Made by a program: the position numbers and the translations under genes. A DNA stretch of 64,000 nucleotides, taken from NCBI GenBank assembly GCA_947499635.1, contig CANMPD010000006.1, forward strand, positions 1 through 64,000. Direction: 5' to 3'. Of the stretch, positions 1,864 to 12,017 are shown one piece after another; positions within the stretch are counted from its first letter, which is position 1; each line of letters starts with the position of its first letter. Origin of the DNA: an uncultured Paracoccaceae bacterium. GTDB lineage: Bacteria; Pseudomonadota; Alphaproteobacteria; Rhodobacterales; Rhodobacteraceae. The notes under the pieces were generated by a model. The model saw only the letters and a list, made by a program, of their open reading frames with translations, did not search any database and was not told the origin of the DNA.

Positions 1864-4800
1864 TTGACGAGTGATAATGAAAACAACAAGAAATCGCCCG
1901 AACAAGTTTGGTTTGATGAGTTGCGCTATTGGCCGTACACCATACATCAAATCGATGACACGCTTGATGCTGAACTAATCGAAGGCCGGGCAAAACAGAT
2001 TTTATTCCAATCTCTTAACAACCAGTCCGTTACGGCATTTGTTGGCTCAGGTGTGTCAGCGGCTTACGGTCGGATGGGGTGGTCGGAATGGAAAGACGAG
2101 CAACTAAGAACCGCAAATGATCTTGGGAAAAAGTTCTCTGCGCTCACACAGGCAAGCTCTGACCTTATTGGTGAGATCGTACCTAGACTCGAGACATACC
2201 AACCTCAAAGCGCCGATCTCCTGCTTATAGGGAGCTGGCTAAGAAATCGCCGGCAAGTCATTCAACGCGCGCAGTGGGATGTAACAAACCTGCTCGCGAC
2301 CTTTCGAGCCTGCGACAGTAAAAGTGGTAGTTTTCCCGGTGGCGAAGATGCGCCAGTCCTCTTTGAGGTGGCGAAAAAACTCCATGATTTGATCATTCGA
2401 AACCACCAGCTGTTCTATCTGTCAACAAGGGTTCACCCTGACGAGCCGGTATTTTGGAGCAAATTCAAGAGCGAAACGATACCGTCGAAAAAAAAGGAGC
2501 TTTTGGAAAATGTCGCCGAAGAAATAAAACAAGAGTTGCCAACGAAGCGTGACGCGCTGCGGGGCAAGCTAGCATATTTTCTAGGCTGCACGGTATCCGA
2601 AGATAACGGTGCCCCGGTCAACAGTCTGCAGTCCTATTTCGACATGCTCGTCGAGAAACAATTCGTTTCAGAGTACGAACTATCGTTCACTAAATACGGC
2701 GTCGCATTAACGGACTTCTGTGAGCACTTGGGAGATGAGTTCGCGATGCTCAAGTTTGACGACTTGGCAAAGTCGCTGCTGGTAGACGAATGCGCACATG
2801 CAAAATCGTTGCTTCAGATTGGCCTGTCAAGCAGGGCTAAAGGCGGGCGACTCATTGAAAAATCGCAAAATTATGACGACGAAGCAAAGAAACTACTGTC
2901 TAAGCAGATCCCCGGCCCGCTGGATAATCTCAAGCGGGATCTGGATGGAATCCGAAAACGGCCTGAACGATACAAGGTACTTGGCTATTTCCAGATCAAA
3001 GCCCTGAAGGAGTTCATTGACAATAATAGTGATGAGTTCCCAGAAATTTGGCAGCCTCTGTTTGAAGACTTCAAGAACAATTGGCAAAGGTATACCGCGA
3101 CGCTTTCGCCAGCTCCGTTGGAGGCAAAGCGACAATATCTTACTCCCACATCGCGTTTTTTAGTGCCTGTCGTACTCCAACTACTGAAAAACCCGTTGCA
3201 ACACACCGATCAAACAAATGCGACAATTAAGGAACTTTGCCAGCCAACCAAGCCCGACGATTTCGTCAGTCGGCGATCGATCATTGCCCGGTCACTGGAT
3301 CCGATTGAACGGCTAAGTGAAAAACTGCAGGTCTCACGATATTTAACAACAAACTATGACTTTGAACTGGAAAGGTTTTTCGAAGACAAAGGGTATCGCC
3401 GTTTTGATCCGCACCAGTCTCTGCCTGAAGGTGTCCGAGCTTCAGATGATCCAGGATTGTTCCGAACCAATGGTCTTGGTGGTGTAATGCATGACTTGAC
3501 TTTCCAGAGTCAAACTGCAGCGGATTTGGTCGCGTTTTCCGCAGTAAGCGATGATGCTGACGTTTCTATTTTTCACCTGCATGGTAGGGCTACCACCGAG
3601 GATGATATTGTCGTCACAGAACGCGACTATCTTGACCTTTATTTGCGCAACAACGAAGGACGCGAAGTGTCCGACGAAAGCATTCTCATGGCATTTGCCG
3701 CAAACACAATGCTTTTTACAGGGCTCGGCATGACAGAGGCTGATGTCTTACGCCCCTTGCGACAGTTCATGTCGGATCAAGATCGTTCAGTAGGATATAA
3801 CGCGATTGTACTGTTGCCAGCGGATCAGGATTACGCCAGCCGCGCAAAAATGTCAGCCGGACTCTATGTGCGCTATGGTGCCCACACGATCCACTTTGGT
3901 AGCGGCGAAGTTGACGTTAGAGATGGCCGAACACAAAGAAAACAGCCTATTGATTGGCTCCATCGCCTCTCCAAATTGATCAAGACCCTAACAGAGTCGG
4001 CGGAAAAGCGTCTTAAGGATCTGGGCGAGCGCAAAGATTTACGCGATCCTCTGGAGCAGTATCACGATCCGGATGCGTTTGCTGCGCTGGTGACCTCCAA
4101 GAAACTGGCCGAGAGCGTCGGAACTTTGGGGCCTGACTTAATGCGTCACGGTAGCGCAAAACCGGATCACCTAGCTCTTCCATACCTCCTGGGAATTCAA
4201 GACGACCAATGGGAAACCTTGGAAAAGTTGAAACAACCGGAAGATTCAAAGGCCTTTCAAGAGAGAGTCCTAGACGCCACAACCAAAATCCAGAACTGCC
4301 ATTTCACGTCACATCGCCACCAAAGCGGAGAAGTCCCTGAAAGCGCGCGGACGATCAGGATAAATAGTACGACATACACAGAGTTTTACGTCGACCTGCT
4401 GACCCAACTGATGCGCATTGGACTACAAAAACAGTCATATACGGATCTGGCCGAGGCGCACCGCAGTCTCAACGCCTATATTACGGCATTGAATGGCGTG
4501 AAGGGCGCGTTGATGACCGCATGTTTCAACGCAGCTCTCGACGGTATTGCCTCTGAGTGGCGCGCATGGTGGCAGGACTGGCAATCCATGCCCCCCGAAC
4601 GCGAAGCTCGGTTACAGATTTTGGCCTCGTCCGACAACAGTAAGTCTAGCTCGGTCTTCATGCCCCGCCGTGAGGTTCGCCATAGGGTTGTCAGCGTAAT
4701 CACAGATTTGCGTAGAATGGAAGATCTCATCGCCCCAGAGCTTGATCTACAGGATCTGGACTATAACGGGGAACGGGCCTTCAAATCGAAAATTGAATTC

Positions 4801-7800
4801 CAGACCGGTGTACGTATGTATGACAGGTTCGTTTTCGATCAGGCGCTCATGCATCGAGAACGCGCGGACCGTGATGGCCGAGTTGTCACAACAATCGATG
4901 CAACCCGCGGCCAAGGTAAGGGCGTGTTTTTCTCGATCTTATCGACGCAGTTGGGGTTAAGCAGCTATATTCAAGCAACGCACCCTAGCCGTAAAGACAA
5001 ACAGTCGAATACCCTGTTTGTCACAGCGACCTTCATCAATTTCGGCTTCGCAACCGAGGTCGGATCGATCTACGAAATGTTGCTTGAAAGCCTAATTCGC
5101 ACCACTTGGCAGCTGCGGGTTGCTGTAAAAGACATCAAAATTGATAATAAACTTAAACCGTTTGACAAAGACTATTGGTCTGAACTGGTAAATTTCGATG
5201 TCAAACGCTACCCCTGTATGCCACCAAATGATCCCGAGCGAGCAAAGCGGCACAAAGCTGAAGAGGAAAATCTCAGGGAGGAAATCCAGGGCCTCTCCCG
5301 CTTTGAAAAGATAAGATATTTGTTGCTGGCCTTCAAAGCGGAGTCCGATAAAATTTGTGATCCAAGTATTTCAAACAATCAATTTCGTCCCCGCATTCTT
5401 ATCGCATTGAACGCCACAGATCTGTTGTTTGATCAAAGGAGAAAACCCAAAAATCGAGAAATAGCGGACTATCTGGGCTTACTGTCATCTGATGAAATGA
5501 AAAAAGTGCCCTTTGATCTTGTCACTATCGGATCCTTATCCGAGATGGGTCATTTTTACGGCTCAGATACGATACTACAACGCAAAACATACATCTGGTC
5601 GTCACTCCACGAGGCTCGGAAAACCGCGCTCCAGCACAGGGCACGGTCGGTTGGCCTTGAGTGCAAGACGGAGGACATAAGTTCTGATCACCTGCAGTCT
5701 TGCCGCCCCGAGCCACCGGCCAAGCCCACTCACTTTGTTCATATTGCCCGCCGCACTGAAGCACTCCAATTTATCGTTGATAACTTTCCTCTGCTGGCTA
5801 CCGCTCTTTATTTGGCTCGACGTAATCGACAAGGGCAATTGCTTAAAGTGTCGCCCGACAGCCAAGAAATACTGGCTTCTTACCGCAGGTTAAAGCGCGT
5901 TCGCGACTATTGGTGGTCGTCAGTAAACCCACCGGATTGCAATCGGATTTACCTAAATTCACGGGCTAATTTCAATAGACGGGTCATTTCCTGTGTCCAT
6001 CGTGCGATCAAGTCAGCCAAAGATGCCAGAGAAGTGCCCGCAAATCTACAGGTGGTGACTGATGCATTTATAGAATTTAAATTCAGTGGAGCCCCCATTG
6101 ATCAACTGCGAGATTATATCAACTGTCTCTATGGGGTGTTCCGACCCCGGCCTCACACAGCGGATGAAGACGACTGGGAACAGCTTGATCAAGCCCTTTC
6201 AGGCAATCGGTTCTGTCTAACCATTTTGCTTTCTGCGGCCGAGCAGCTGGTCTTGACCCAACATGATTTCAAAGTGGGCGGTGAAAAGGCCAATGAGATG
6301 TTGAAATCCGTTGTCGCCTCGTTGAGAAGCGCGAGTCAGGAAAAGCGCGAAGAGACCGTGATGTCTGCGGTCATGTCTGTCAATCGGCAGATTGCTCAAA
6401 TCGGAGATCCTGCTTTTGATTATGAGCTGCATCAGTTGTTGCTAAGAAATATTGCCGTTTTGGGCTGCCCGGTCAGCCCCAATGTGCTAGTGCGCCTGCC
6501 AGATATTCGCGACTATTTTAATGCGGTTACCTTCTCAGGCAAAATAAGTCGCCGCCGCATCGTCGCACGCGCGCTGGCAACCTTGGCCGAACGCGGGTTG
6601 GTGTTTCGCCTTGGGCCGCACCCAAAATTGCTATCACTTGCCGATTACGTGAAAGACTATGAAGACGCAGTGCATGACGACAGCAACCTTAACGATGAAA
6701 AATACTATGGCAAGGAACTGGACAAAAAGCGAAGCAAATGCAGCGATACCAATAGTGATAAGCAAGCCGCCATAAATCGTATCGAGCATTTTCGCCAACT
6801 GAAAAAGACATTTGACGGCTGGCCACCTCATTACGAATATCGCTATGCGTTGCACCGTCAGGTGCAAAGCCACTGTTTCCGCCGTCTCGGCCTATTGACC
6901 GCACCACCGATCACCGCGAACAATTTTTCTCCAACGTTGTTCGCCGCTATGCCAAGCCGCGTTGTCCGTCTCTCCTCAGAAGGTTATCTGTTTTTGAGGC
7001 GGTTGCTCCTCGGGCTCAGCCAATATCCCGACATTCGCCACGGCGACAACGCGCGTACGGTTAAAATATTTAACGATGAAGATTCCATTACCAGAGTGCA
7101 GGCTCTACGGGCTGCTCTTTCGCTGGCGCGCACCTGCTACTCCATCGCTGCGGTCTCCCGATTTGATCGCGACGGCACCGGGCTAGGAGTGATCCGCAAG
7201 CGTGGGCATTTTGAAACCTATCGCGTACGCCTTCGCTGGATACTGCGCAAAGCCTGGGAGGTGCATGAGCCCCGAACCAAATTGGATGCCGATTTAGAAG
7301 AGCGCCCGCGCAAGATAAACTTCCGTCGTATCAACGCGCTTTATGTTGATGAAATCGTTTGGCTCTATAACGAGGTCGCCGTGACTTGTCTGGTGCAAGG
7401 GGCGCTCGCCGAAGCGCTGGCGCATATACGTCAAGCCATCCATGTAAATAGGCAGATCGAGCATTCTGAAGACCACGGCCGGATGCACAATCTACTGTCT
7501 TTGAACTGCGCGATCATACAGTTGGAGCGCGGCCATCTGGCGGCCGCAGAAAAGCGCCTCAATCAAATTGTGGCCAGCGAAGGTGAACCTGGACGGCGTC
7601 TTTCGCATCTCGCGCGAGGCTATCTCGCTCTCATTACCCAACTTCGCGGTCGTGGGAGCGAAGCTGAAACCCTAATGCTGAAAGTGATAGAGAAGCTCGA
7701 AAAGGAAAATCAAGATCGAGCACTTGCCATTTTCTTGCAACATCTAGCGCGTTTGGTGTCGCGGAAAGACAGTATTTTGGCGCAAGCGTATATGAATAGA

Positions 7801-8277
7801 GCACGCGACTACGCCGAAAAAGGCGGTCATGAAGACGTTCGGTATCGCATTTTGGTCAGCGAGGTCTGGGTGTCACAGGAACTAACACCCGATCCTCAGG
7901 ATCGCATGAAACGCGACCGGGCGAAGCTACGTGAAGCGGAGCAATACGCAGAAGCCATGGGCATCTATGCATTATTTGTCGAAAGCCTCCATGCCCAGGG
8001 AATGATCCTATTGCGGGCTGGAGACTATTCTCGGGCTGGTCGCCTTATGACCAAGGCCATGGCTATAGCAAGACGTAACGATATGACCCTACGCCTAAAC
8101 TCTATCATGACCAATTACGCCAAAGTCCTCTTGGCTCGCCGTCGCATAGCCTCAGCCCAAAGGTTATTAAAGGCGTCTTTGGCACTAGCTAAACGGTGCG
8201 AATATTCGACGGAGGTCGTGCGTATCCATGCGGTTATGGATGACGTGGAAGAGCACTCATCGACAGAAAAACAGTAA
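1864..8277 (+). CDS. Giant SIR2-domain / P-loop-like / TPR protein, probable antiphage NADase sensor
   Basis: 2137 residues from TTG, preceded by GGGAG about 10 nt upstream; no ATG lies nearby in frame. The N-terminal third is a SIR2-like fold: nucleotide loop TAFVGSGVSAAYG (residues 57-69), TTNYD (Asn497), FHLHG (His571/His573) and TGLGMTEADV (about 618). The Asn and His positions used for NAD hydrolysis are kept. A second nucleotide-binding-like region has ATRGQGKGV (1013-1021) and a hydrophobic Walker B-like strand RILIALNATDLLFD (about 1177-1190). From about 1830 to the end the sequence is helical with alternating Ala/Leu/Tyr pairs typical of TPR repeats. SIR2 effectors fused to STAND-type NTPases with C-terminal repeats (Avs5-like and relatives) are known defence proteins that deplete NAD on phage sensing. 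That role is inferred here from architecture and from the mobile-element context. The Walker A is imperfect. Confidence 0.8.
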   Translation: MTSDNENNKKSPEQVWFDELRYWPYTIHQIDDTLDAELIEGRAKQILFQSLNNQSVTAFVGSGVSAAYGRMGWSEWKDEQLRTANDLGKKFSALTQASSDLIGEIVPRLETYQPQSADLLLIGSWLRNRRQVIQRAQWDVTNLLATFRACDSKSGSFPGGEDAPVLFEVAKKLHDLIIRNHQLFYLSTRVHPDEPVFWSKFKSETIPSKKKELLENVAEEIKQELPTKRDALRGKLAYFLGCTVSEDNGAPVNSLQSYFDMLVEKQFVSEYELSFTKYGVALTDFCEHLGDEFAMLKFDDLAKSLLVDECAHAKSLLQIGLSSRAKGGRLIEKSQNYDDEAKKLLSKQIPGPLDNLKRDLDGIRKRPERYKVLGYFQIKALKEFIDNNSDEFPEIWQPLFEDFKNNWQRYTATLSPAPLEAKRQYLTPTSRFLVPVVLQLLKNPLQHTDQTNATIKELCQPTKPDDFVSRRSIIARSLDPIERLSEKLQVSRYLTTNYDFELERFFEDKGYRRFDPHQSLPEGVRASDDPGLFRTNGLGGVMHDLTFQSQTAADLVAFSAVSDDADVSIFHLHGRATTEDDIVVTERDYLDLYLRNNEGREVSDESILMAFAANTMLFTGLGMTEADVLRPLRQFMSDQDRSVGYNAIVLLPADQDYASRAKMSAGLYVRYGAHTIHFGSGEVDVRDGRTQRKQPIDWLHRLSKLIKTLTESAEKRLKDLGERKDLRDPLEQYHDPDAFAALVTSKKLAESVGTLGPDLMRHGSAKPDHLALPYLLGIQDDQWETLEKLKQPEDSKAFQERVLDATTKIQNCHFTSHRHQSGEVPESARTIRINSTTYTEFYVDLLTQLMRIGLQKQSYTDLAEAHRSLNAYITALNGVKGALMTACFNAALDGIASEWRAWWQDWQSMPPEREARLQILASSDNSKSSSVFMPRREVRHRVVSVITDLRRMEDLIAPELDLQDLDYNGERAFKSKIEFQTGVRMYDRFVFDQALMHRERADRDGRVVTTIDATRGQGKGVFFSILSTQLGLSSYIQATHPSRKDKQSNTLFVTATFINFGFATEVGSIYEMLLESLIRTTWQLRVAVKDIKIDNKLKPFDKDYWSELVNFDVKRYPCMPPNDPERAKRHKAEEENLREEIQGLSRFEKIRYLLLAFKAESDKICDPSISNNQFRPRILIALNATDLLFDQRRKPKNREIADYLGLLSSDEMKKVPFDLVTIGSLSEMGHFYGSDTILQRKTYIWSSLHEARKTALQHRARSVGLECKTEDISSDHLQSCRPEPPAKPTHFVHIARRTEALQFIVDNFPLLATALYLARRNRQGQLLKVSPDSQEILASYRRLKRVRDYWWSSVNPPDCNRIYLNSRANFNRRVISCVHRAIKSAKDAREVPANLQVVTDAFIEFKFSGAPIDQLRDYINCLYGVFRPRPHTADEDDWEQLDQALSGNRFCLTILLSAAEQLVLTQHDFKVGGEKANEMLKSVVASLRSASQEKREETVMSAVMSVNRQIAQIGDPAFDYELHQLLLRNIAVLGCPVSPNVLVRLPDIRDYFNAVTFSGKISRRRIVARALATLAERGLVFRLGPHPKLLSLADYVKDYEDAVHDDSNLNDEKYYGKELDKKRSKCSDTNSDKQAAINRIEHFRQLKKTFDGWPPHYEYRYALHRQVQSHCFRRLGLLTAPPITANNFSPTLFAAMPSRVVRLSSEGYLFLRRLLLGLSQYPDIRHGDNARTVKIFNDEDSITRVQALRAALSLARTCYSIAAVSRFDRDGTGLGVIRKRGHFETYRVRLRWILRKAWEVHEPRTKLDADLEERPRKINFRRINALYVDEIVWLYNEVAVTCLVQGALAEALAHIRQAIHVNRQIEHSEDHGRMHNLLSLNCAIIQLERGHLAAAEKRLNQIVASEGEPGRRLSHLARGYLALITQLRGRGSEAETLMLKVIEKLEKENQDRALAIFLQHLARLVSRKDSILAQAYMNRARDYAEKGGHEDVRYRILVSEVWVSQELTPDPQDRMKRDRAKLREAEQYAEAMGIYALFVESLHAQGMILLRAGDYSRAGRLMTKAMAIARRNDMTLRLNSIMTNYAKVLLARRRIASAQRLLKASLALAKRCEYSTEVVRIHAVMDDVEEHSSTEKQ

Positions 8278-8613: not shown

Positions 8614-8718
8614 ATTTCTCCGTCTCAACCTGTCGGGCTTCTCGAAACACCCACATCTAGTTGTTTTGTGACATTTACATATTACGTATACTGGCCCCTA
8701 ACTGCGAGGCGTACCGTC

Positions 8719-9330
8719 ATGACCCTCAACGAAGCTATCGGCGGTGCGCTTGTTGAACACAAAGCTCTTGAAATCCGAGAGAAAAACGGTGCGCGGATAG
8801 CCTGTGTGGGTGCAATCGAGGCCTTCAACAGGGATTACACCGTCTGTGTTGATCCGGACGATATTTCCCACGCCACCATTTTGGCAGAAGGACAACCTGA
8901 ACCCATCCTTGCGGATCTGTCGTGGACAGCTGTGAAAGACCTCACTCTGCAGGAGTTCCTGAACTACGCCAAGATAGCGCGCGCAGAAGATCCAGAACTC
9001 ACGGCCGATTTTGAGCGGACGATTGCTCGAGTACGTCGTGAACGATCCGATCACATGCGTCAAATCACAGCTGATCGGAAATTGCCACGCAGCTACCTTA
9101 CAGCAGCAGAAGCTACCAAAATGGCGGAGCAAATCCTTGCAGGTGTCCCATCAGCGCAAGCCGAGCTCTTGCCGGGAACCGTCGCGCCCGGTTCTTTAGA
9201 CAATGAGGACCTTTGCGAAGGCGCATGGGATATCGGCCCAGGGTTTGACCCATCTATTGACGGTAAGAGTGGCGACGATGAGGTTCAGCCTGACTTTGAT
9301 CGTCCGAATGTGACGGGAAAACTGACATGA
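8719..9330 (+). CDS. TniA/Mu-transposase C-terminal-like fragment
   Basis: 203 residues from ATG at 8719 (an upstream GTG at 8668 is possible). The first half contains GARIACVGAIEAF...YTVCVDPDDIS, which resembles the small beta-barrel of the Mu-transposase C-terminal region in TniA proteins (typical pattern DPxDL/I followed by a short strand). It is followed by a charged helical stretch (ADFERTIARVRRERSDHMRQ) and an acidic tail. Full-length TniA is about 600 residues with an integrase DDE core; nothing of that core is present here or just upstream. The stop overlaps the start of the next gene (TGACATGA), as tniA-tniB usually do. Probably a decayed transposase whose 3' end survives in frame; alternatively an independent accessory protein of the ATPase. 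Confidence 0.45.
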   Translation: MTLNEAIGGALVEHKALEIREKNGARIACVGAIEAFNRDYTVCVDPDDISHATILAEGQPEPILADLSWTAVKDLTLQEFLNYAKIARAEDPELTADFERTIARVRRERSDHMRQITADRKLPRSYLTAAEATKMAEQILAGVPSAQAELLPGTVAPGSLDNEDLCEGAWDIGPGFDPSIDGKSGDDEVQPDFDRPNVTGKLT

Positions 9331-10295
9331 GCTTTGTAAACAGTGCGACCGTCGATCACACCGCCAGCCTCACGAGCGCGCATTATGCATTCCCCCGCGC
9401 GAAACTTCTGCGCGAGGGATTGACTTGGATGATCACAGACTATTACGCCAAGATGTCGCTCTCGCAGCCCTTCGAGGCACGTGGACTTTTGGTAACCGGC
9501 CCTTCACGGTCAGGAAAATCGACCGAAATCCGCAAGCTATTGTCCGAGGTGAATTCGGGAGACACGTTAATGCCCGACGGCAGGCCAGCAAAAATCGCAT
9601 CGGTGATTTTGAAAGGTTCCCTGACTTGGAAAGATCTTGGGATGTACACGCTGCAAACGGGCCTCAAGTACCCTGCAACCGGACGATTGACGCAGCGAGA
9701 GGTCTGGGAGCGCGTTGTCCTGCAAGCCAAATTGCAGGGTGTTGTTGGTATTCACTACGATGAGTGCCAGCATATTTTTCCGACAAAAGGGGGCGATTCA
9801 AGCGCCAAAATTCTGGACAGCTTCAAGTCTCTGCTTAAACAGTCCGAGTGGCCTTTGATGTTGATCTTGTCGGGCGTTGAAACGCTTGCACGACAGATCA
9901 CACAAGAGGAGCAATTGGCCTATTTGCTTCGACCATTGGCATTTTCTGAAATCTCCATGGCCAGCAAAGCCGATCAATCGGAACTGCACACCCTTTGCCA
10001 TGCCTACGCTCAAAAGGCTGAACTCGATCTCGGAGGGCTTCCCTCTCACGACTTCTACAACAGGTTAGAAACCGCCTGCGCGTTTCGTTGGGGCCTCGCG
10101 ATTGAGCTACTCATTGATGCCTGCATCGTCGCGCTTTCAGCAAAGCGAACAAAATTGGCTACATCAGATTTTTGTAAGGCCTTCACAGATGCGACCGGCT
10201 TGCGGCCAGGCTATTCGCCGTTTTCGATCGACGACTATGAAGTCCTTTTTGAACCCCAAAAGATCTTTGAATTATGGGAGGGAAAACACCTCTAA
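9327..10295 (+). CDS. tniB: TniB-family transposition ATPase
   Basis: 322 residues, start ATG overlapping the previous stop. Walker A is LLVTGPSRSGKST (about residues 55-67) and Walker B is GIHYDECQHIF (about 142-152). A sensor-type segment (LILSGVETLARQI) follows, as in TniB/TnsC-type AAA+ regulators, which select target DNA and activate the TniA transposase. Length matches TniB (about 300). The C-terminal helices are intact, so the ATPase could still fold. A strong terminator follows. No tniQ, resolvase or intact tniA is visible, so the element is unlikely to move on its own. Confidence 0.75.
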   Translation: MSFVNSATVDHTASLTSAHYAFPRAKLLREGLTWMITDYYAKMSLSQPFEARGLLVTGPSRSGKSTEIRKLLSEVNSGDTLMPDGRPAKIASVILKGSLTWKDLGMYTLQTGLKYPATGRLTQREVWERVVLQAKLQGVVGIHYDECQHIFPTKGGDSSAKILDSFKSLLKQSEWPLMLILSGVETLARQITQEEQLAYLLRPLAFSEISMASKADQSELHTLCHAYAQKAELDLGGLPSHDFYNRLETACAFRWGLAIELLIDACIVALSAKRTKLATSDFCKAFTDATGLRPGYSPFSIDDYEVLFEPQKIFELWEGKHL

Positions 10296-10779: not shown

Positions 10780-11499
10780 ATGTTATGTATGGCGAATTGT
10801 CTTATACGATTGTGGAGCATAGCCATCGCGGTGTCCCTTTCGTGCGGGCCGCTTTGGGCCGGGGCATGGTTACATGAGGCCGGGCAGGGGTTTACGTCCG
10901 CCTCTTTGCGTCAGCGTGCAGGTTTTACCGAAATTGGGCATTTCACCAGCTATGGGTTAACGCCTGATGTAACAGTTGGGCTGGATCTCAATGATACCAA
11001 TACCGGTGTTGCGCATGTCCTAGGCTTTGTGCGGTTCCCCATACGACAGCTTCAGGACCATCGCCGCGTCGCGGTTGAGTTCGGGCTTGGGGCGAATGTG
11101 TCGCCCAGTCAGGGTTGGGGGTTGTTACATCGCATTACGCTTTCACTGGGTCAGACCTTACAGTTTAAATCTCTGAGTGGTTGGGCATCGGTGGATGTAT
11201 CGCGTGAATTTCGTGATAACGGTACCTCTGCGGCGTGGAAATTGGACACAACGATTGGCTTGGGTCATGGGATCAATGTTTGGGGGATATCGACCTATGA
11301 AGCTGCTCCGATTTTGCAGGTCGAAGTGTACAAAGCGGATGCTGCCGATCTGAGCTATACAGTGTTGCCTGCCTTGCGTTTGAATCTTAGGAACCGCCGG
11401 ACGCTTGTGGCAGGGATCAGCTATCAGGCGCAAAGATCAAGCAGGCAGCAAAGACGCGGCGAATTTGGTCTGCGTCTTGAACTTTGGCAACGTTTCTAG
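10780..11499 (+). CDS. Putative outer-membrane beta-barrel protein
   Basis: 239 residues with an N-terminal signal peptide (LIRLWSIAIAVSLSCGPLWAGA). After cleavage the protein begins AWLHEAGQGFTSASL and runs as alternating polar and hydrophobic strands with many Gly and aromatic residues (GLGANVSPSQGWGLLHRITLSLG, VAGISYQAQRSS), ending in an aromatic residue (LELWQRF), as outer-membrane barrels do. Conserved proteins of this kind occur in Roseobacters without known function. The start could also be the ATG at 10789; neither has a strong ribosome site. Confidence 0.65.
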   Translation: MLCMANCLIRLWSIAIAVSLSCGPLWAGAWLHEAGQGFTSASLRQRAGFTEIGHFTSYGLTPDVTVGLDLNDTNTGVAHVLGFVRFPIRQLQDHRRVAVEFGLGANVSPSQGWGLLHRITLSLGQTLQFKSLSGWASVDVSREFRDNGTSAAWKLDTTIGLGHGINVWGISTYEAAPILQVEVYKADAADLSYTVLPALRLNLRNRRTLVAGISYQAQRSSRQQRRGEFGLRLELWQRF

Positions 11500-11537: not shown

Positions 11538-12017
11538 ATGACAAACCCTATCCGTACGACAGATGACACGGCCCGCGCATTGGCGCAGGATTTGATGCAA
11601 AAGGCTCGTTTTGCAGCCTTGGCAACTCTGACTCCTGAAGGCCTACCTGCAGTGACCCGCGTAGCTTTTGGTTTGGCACCTGATGGCGCGCCGGTCAGTC
11701 TGATCTCAACCTTGGCTGCGCATACTCAGGCGTTGCAACACTGTGCGGCTTGTTCTTTGTTGATCGGCGAACCTGGCGACAAAGGGGATCCGCTGACCCA
11801 CCCACGCCTTACTTTAAATGGACAGTCAAAAATTTTGCCCAACAATGACGCTGATCATCGTAGGCTCGCGGATCATTACCTGCAAACACACCCCAAATCC
11901 AAGTTGTACATCGGTTTTGGAGATTTTCATTTTTTGAAAATGGATATCACTGACGCGATGCTAAATGGGGGATTTGGCAAAGCATTTCACCTAACCCCCG
12001 CCGATTTAGGGCTGTAG
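11538..12017 (+). CDS. HugZ/pyridoxamine-5'-phosphate-oxidase-like protein
   Basis: 159 residues, GGGAGACAGG ahead of the ATG. The sequence RFAALATLTPEGLPAVTRV...SLISTLAAHTQAL is the split-barrel flavin/heme-binding core of the PNPOx-like HugZ family. HugZ proteins take part in heme utilisation. The length suits a single barrel without the extra C-terminal DUF2470 domain of longer homologues. No heme-uptake genes are next to it, so the ligand is unknown. It converges with the beta-helix gene 7 nt downstream. Confidence 0.75.
   Translation: MTNPIRTTDDTARALAQDLMQKARFAALATLTPEGLPAVTRVAFGLAPDGAPVSLISTLAAHTQALQHCAACSLLIGEPGDKGDPLTHPRLTLNGQSKILPNNDADHRRLADHYLQTHPKSKLYIGFGDFHFLKMDITDAMLNGGFGKAFHLTPADLGL

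Follow-up and report, generated by a model that had tools for sequence, protein, structure and literature searches.

A predicted SIR2-STAND-TPR receptor with a split SIR2 domain and an uncommon P-loop in an uncultured Paracoccaceae bacterium

Our analysis of a 64,000-nucleotide stretch of DNA from an uncultured Paracoccaceae bacterium (contig CANMPD010000006.1, positions 1 to 64,000; hereafter the window) points to a gene near its left end whose 2137-residue product joins a SIR2 domain, a STAND NTPase module and a C-terminal TPR region and would by itself serve as an immune receptor, killing an infected cell or stalling it. We place the probability of this reading at about 0.7. In our model, the STAND module, comprising NB-ARC-like nucleotide-binding, winged-helix and TPR parts, would keep the protein inactive at rest. 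A trigger, either made by the phage or arising from damage to the cell, would bind the TPR part, whereupon the STAND module would open and the protomers would assemble. The SIR2 domains, clustered in this way, might then hydrolyse NAD+, leaving the phage unable to multiply.

The initial annotation had placed the protein at 1864 to 8277, and these coordinates proved exact. The plus-strand frame holds no internal stop (open frame of 2142 codons), and GGGAG, seen by eye at 1851-1855, lies directly upstream of the TTG start. Because the frame is open from end to end, a broken copy or a frameshift artefact can be ruled out. The protein has no NCBIfam match at E <= 1, its PADLOC matches are weak (to ThsA, Dsr1, LmuA and PDC-S25), and its single sequence retrieved no relevant chain from the PDB sequences; the NCBIfam and PADLOC results are signs in favor of the earlier suggestion that the protein belongs to a distinct subfamily.

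Structure prediction, a check proposed with the initial annotation, found both a SIR2 fold and a STAND NTPase fold, in two separately predicted parts built with 26 and 23 sequences. Judged by profile, motif order and predicted fold, the SIR2 domain is of the antiphage type. PF13289 (SIR2_2) matches residues 492-659 with 50.8 bits against a Pfam cut-off of 24.5, the motifs follow one another in the order G[SA]GxS, TTNxD and HG, and the closest structures in a fold search come mostly from antiphage systems. Asn497, His571 and His573, noted from the outset as kept, are invariant together with Gly574 across a 26-row alignment of the SIR2 part, and in a profile alignment TTNYD and HG fall onto the same motifs of ThsA, with His573 as the His of HG. 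The core motifs of the domain had thus been correctly recognized, whereas its start at residue ~34, its GSGVS loop and its division by ~370 mostly helical residues had been missed. Because of this internal insert, the domain spans ~670 residues; the distance between the GSG and TTN motifs is 434 residues here and 146-492 over the 26 rows. The domain is predicted to hydrolyse NAD+, and the helical insert probably either mediates protomer contacts or blocks the active site while the protein is inactive.

The ~350 residues between the SIR2 core and the P-loop-like motif, initially described as impossible to assign, now divide in two. A helical linker (~705-922) remains as such, while residues ~923-1012 already lie within the range that aligns with Apaf-1 in the predicted model. 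The module behind the linker has, according to this model, a STAND NTPase fold of the NB-ARC/AP-ATPase type with a winged helix, in agreement with the second nucleotide-binding-like module proposed earlier. Pfam NTPase models gave no match to the protein at E <= 1, and a profile of residues 700-1720 retrieved no STAND chain from the PDB sequences; AAA_22 matches over the motif equivalent to RGQGKG in two short homologues, below the cut-off. Avs5 is not among the best 50 fold-search matches for the STAND model, which excludes nothing. In place of the canonical Walker A motif GxxxxGK[ST], 26 of 26 aligned members carry GxG[KR]G, and the candidate acidic Walker B residue, Asp1186 here, is aspartate or glutamate in 22 of the 26 rows.

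The uniform replacement of Ser/Thr by Gly in these 26 members would also fit a degenerate STAND switch, in which the GKG P-loop holds its nucleotide firmly without hydrolysis and only the SIR2 insert or the TPR part exerts control. A precedent for an odd P-loop in STAND-like proteins is the GG[T/S] motif of the SAMD9 family, as reported in PMC5445408. We regard such a switch as improbable: the strict conservation of the P-loop speaks for nucleotide binding. Moreover, adenylate kinases have GKG in their P-loop and are nevertheless active enzymes.

For the C-terminal array of TPR-like repeats, also proposed initially, several TPR models match residues 1834-2110, each below the Pfam cut-off, and TPR_12 matches 22 of 24 members, including the window protein, at E <= 0.1. 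Judged from these profile matches, a repeat array follows the STAND module, and its presumed role in our model is that of the sensor.

Table 1 Features of the SIR2-STAND-TPR gene in the window.
Feature	Position	Strand	Residues	Details
SIR2-STAND-TPR gene	1864..8277	+		2137 residues, TTG start; list of open reading frames, reading frame
SIR2 domain including insert	1963..3975	+	~34-704	
GSGVS loop, first SIR2 nucleotide-binding motif	2044..2058	+	61-65	
Nearly all-helical insert within SIR2 domain	2080..3183	+	~73-440	Secondary structure of the model
TTNYD with predicted catalytic Asn497	3346..3360	+	495-499	
HLHG with predicted catalytic His573	3574..3585	+	571-574	
Helical linker	3976..4629	+	~705-922	Conserved W902, W906, P910, R913
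STAND NTPase module, NB-ARC/Apaf-1 type, with winged-helix part	4630..7020	+	~923-1719	Predicted model
P-loop RGQGKG	4906..4923	+	1015-1020	Gly in place of Walker A Ser/Thr
Walker-B-like strand RILIALNATD	5392..5421	+	1177-1186	
TPR region, presumed sensor	7363..8193	+	~1834-2110	Pfam

The family is rare and patchily distributed. Protein searches at E <= 0.001 gave matches in 7 of 394 genomes of the same family and 8 of 385 of the same class, counts that take in the window's own genome as well as matches that are weak or partial. Among 72,556 plasmid records there were two matches, while none of 50,697 phage records matched and a profile search of viral contigs found nothing; there is thus no sign of a viral origin of the gene in either collection. 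A profile search of genome contigs (alignment A1) yielded 31 loci, mostly labelled Alphaproteobacteria, with one locus each labelled Granulosicoccaceae, Derxia, Binataceae and Mesoflavibacter; the Binataceae-labelled locus carries the same protein as a Xanthobacteraceae locus (L074). The nearest relative is found in Labrenzia sp. OB1 (L052), with 51% identity in the family alignment and 61% over the columns kept for the tree. Lengths range from 1358 to 2439 residues over the 26-row set and from 2026 to 2439 in the clade of the window protein. The early remark that this protein is at the long end therefore holds in comparison with ThsA, DSR2 and Avs5 and fails within its own clade, where its length is ordinary. 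Two further observations concern related sequences: another same-family genome contains a homologue in several pieces covering about residues 18-885 (L041:6538-9410), and the window's own genome contains, outside the window, a second SIR2_2 match of 50.9 bits in a frame of 594 codons (L048, G000:C6:128540-128893).

The gene lies in an accessory part of the genome. The window begins at the first base of its contig (C6), and its similarity in DNA to five same-genus loci, drawn from ten other same-genus genomes searched, extends from about 12,303 rightward; left of ~12,303 these five loci gave no DNA match at E <= 1e-10. Because genes like those at 10780-11499 and 11538-12017 are, by eye, next in order in one or more relatives, the accessory stretch that holds the SIR2-STAND-TPR gene probably begins left of 10,780. 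Downstream of the gene lie two further genes, at 8668-9330 and 9327-10295, which share 4 bases. Pfam gave no match for the first; the second matches AAA_22 with 36.4 bits against a cut-off of 27 and TniB below threshold, and distant homologues of it occur in 58 plasmid records. With regard to possible transposon cargo, no recognized transposase adjoins 8668-10295, and a related pair on a Leisingera plasmid adjoins heavy-metal efflux genes; the annotation of the plasmid stretch examined includes no transposase. At the contig edge, a minus-strand open reading frame (212-727) resembles by eye part of an endonuclease/exonuclease/phosphatase and is possibly a broken gene; it has no Pfam match at E <= 1.

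The gene neighborhoods of the homologues, another check proposed at the outset, gave a thin defence context. Downstream of the Ahrensia homologue, at a distance of ~1.1 kb, the opposite strand encodes a Septu system (PtuA 873.9 bits, PtuB 324.7 bits in PADLOC; L065:11917-15194), separated from the homologue by a frame of 282 residues that has no PADLOC match, and an ATPase resembling those of several defence systems adjoins another homologue (L056). The PADLOC tally of 99 neighbors comprises the best 25 of 133 families, and other single defence genes may therefore be hidden. Many neighbors look metabolic or housekeeping in the Pfam tally (99 neighbors, best 25 of 116 families) and, for five loci and L052, by eye, as would be expected if the protein were a regulatory or stress protein whose SIR2 and TPR parts serve host physiology rather than defence. 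We consider this very unlikely given the rare and patchy distribution, the lack of a DNA match to the stretch in the five same-genus loci and the antiphage origin of most of the closest structures.

In 10 of 36 loci the SIR2 gene is adjoined by a gene for an AAA+ protein, hereafter the partner, detected with a profile (A2) built from seven neighbors. The two genes have the same direction in L049, L050, L053 (Hoeflea), L055 (Stappia stellulata), L057, L058 and L061 and lie on opposite strands in L060 and L069/L016. Because L016 and L069 are one and the same SIR2 gene and L049, L055 and L058 are close kin, the ten loci represent about seven separate partner lineages. The C-terminal part of the partner is AAA+, with PF00004 over the cut-off in three of the seven proteins scanned, and the Methylobacterium partner also contains a RyR domain (PF02026, 55.8 bits against a cut-off of 27.4). 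PADLOC matched none of nine partners at E <= 0.01, and among the open-licence PMC matches listed, no paper names this family or its AAA+ neighbor. GDxxxD and GG motifs suggest by eye that the N-terminal part is a ribokinase (PfkB). This identity could not be shown: Pfam gave no PfkB match at E <= 0.5, no ribokinase was among the PDB matches, and alignment of the partner to six PfkB proteins of its own genome with hhalign gave a probability of 1% (E 0.053).

The recurrence of this pair raises the question of whether the SIR2 domain makes or modifies an ADP-ribose signal, either ADP-ribose itself or a cyclic form, that is sensed by a second protein without depletion of NAD+; the AAA+ neighbor, which carries RyR in Methylobacterium, would act as the receiver or as a brake. 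Cyclic ADP-ribose signals are degraded or sequestered by phage RyR-domain proteins, according to PMC13232231, and the Methylobacterium RyR domain fits such a scheme. RyR is, however, present in just one of the seven partners scanned, and in 26 of 36 loci, the window included, the available DNA contains no partner, although three of these (L067, L070 and the window) have under 2 kb of upstream DNA. The partner was also absent elsewhere in all 14 partnerless genomes searched, both control genomes being positive; it is absent from the window's genome, and the window, in which the contig starts 1863 bases upstream of the gene, contains no remnant of it. Nor do partner and SIR2 protein appear to have diverged together: in a test of seven of nine partner lineages, which omitted L049 and L058 as near copies, 647 of 5040 Mantel permutations reached as high a value, and the correlation was negative without L069. 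Taken together, these observations make a signalling role of this kind quite unlikely, and we favor the single-protein receptor.

Clustering of partner presence on the tree is likewise not supported, since the six changes it needs were matched in 58 of 500 shuffles. The window falls into a branch of four rows (window, L052, L059 and L051; SH-aLRT branch support 98), all of which are partnerless. An exclusive linkage can be rejected, because relatives of the partner occur with no such SIR2 gene in view on a Streptomyces plasmid and on a viral-labelled contig. The partner profile found one full-length match in the 394 same-family genomes (G346, adjoining the SIR2 gene), together with two AAA-only relatives (L089 and L090) and two weak matches, and two weak matches in the 385 same-class genomes, with only two candidates scored per genome in most. 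Partner and SIR2 gene are thus linked repeatedly though not exclusively, and any functional tie between them is a hypothesis. We tentatively raise, as a rather doubtful possibility, an undescribed two-part system: the SIR2-STAND-TPR receptor, in which the helical insert would be a control domain and the GKG P-loop would not hydrolyse its nucleotide, would be the effector half, regulated by the adjacent AAA+ ATPase with its kinase-like N-terminal domain, in some cases with RyR reading SIR2-made ADP-ribose, and the window copy would belong to a branch turned partner-free.

Three of the partner relatives have neighborhoods of their own. The relative on the viral-labelled contig has 964 residues (L108:7245-10139); no SIR2-like motif pair was seen nearby, and some of its neighbors resemble conjugation genes by eye. 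In genomes G215 and G031 (L089:3835-14586 and L090:1430-8497), the AAA+ relative lies opposite a gene that by eye resembles a Nudix hydrolase, behind which both loci have three more genes of similar size. A SIR2-HerA pair comes next in L089 (PADLOC: SIR2 430.3 bits, HerA 509.4 bits), where the AAA protein and the Nudix-like protein have no PADLOC match at E <= 1e-4.

Comparison with known systems places the protein close in layout to Avs5 (AVAST type 5). Avs5-kind SIR2-STAND proteins answer phage by NAD+ hydrolysis, as stated in PMC12931631, and the order SIR2, STAND, repeats is common to both, in line with the layout initially recognized as that of SIR2-STAND defence proteins. In contrast, the SIR2 domain of Avs5 spans ~262 chain residues in structures versus ~643 in the interrupted domain here, the P-loop reads GPAGSGKT in PaAvs5 versus RGQGKG here, and the listed Avs5 chains have 764 and 833 residues. 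PADLOC gave no Avs5-named match, and profile searches of the PDB sequences gave no Avs5 chain at E <= 1; neither library was checked with a known Avs5 protein as a positive control. The SIR2 fold scores nearer to those of ThsA (Thoeris) and DSR2; listed ThsA chains are below 500 residues and DSR2 ~1000, whereas in our protein a STAND module and TPR follow the SIR2 domain, setting it apart from ThsA and DSR1/DSR2. Relative to NB-ARC/AP-ATPase STAND proteins (plant NLRs, Apaf-1 and the bacterial STAND-TPR protein 6mfv), it has no Ser/Thr after the P-loop Lys, and its effector is SIR2. The SIR2-STAND idea thereby extends beyond Avs5 to a family whose module is NLR/Apaf-1-like, whose P-loop is uncommon and whose SIR2 domain is split, a family that also points to a recurrently adjacent AAA+ protein with no PADLOC entry. 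If our reading is correct, bacteria have here an NLR-like receptor whose effector is an NADase, and it would allow a test of how a non-canonical P-loop is used. The SAMD9 family has SIR2-like, STAND-like P-loop and TPR parts in the same order, according to PMC5445408, and differs in its P-loop (GG[T/S] there, GxG[KR]G here); for its AlbA_2 and OB-fold parts our protein has no Pfam match at E <= 1, a level at which weak ones could escape. Given the same order of parts as in Avs5, a SIR2 fold nearer to ThsA and DSR2 and a P-loop unlike that of Avs5, we therefore think that the protein probably works like a SIR2-STAND receptor, and we do not file it as Avs5.

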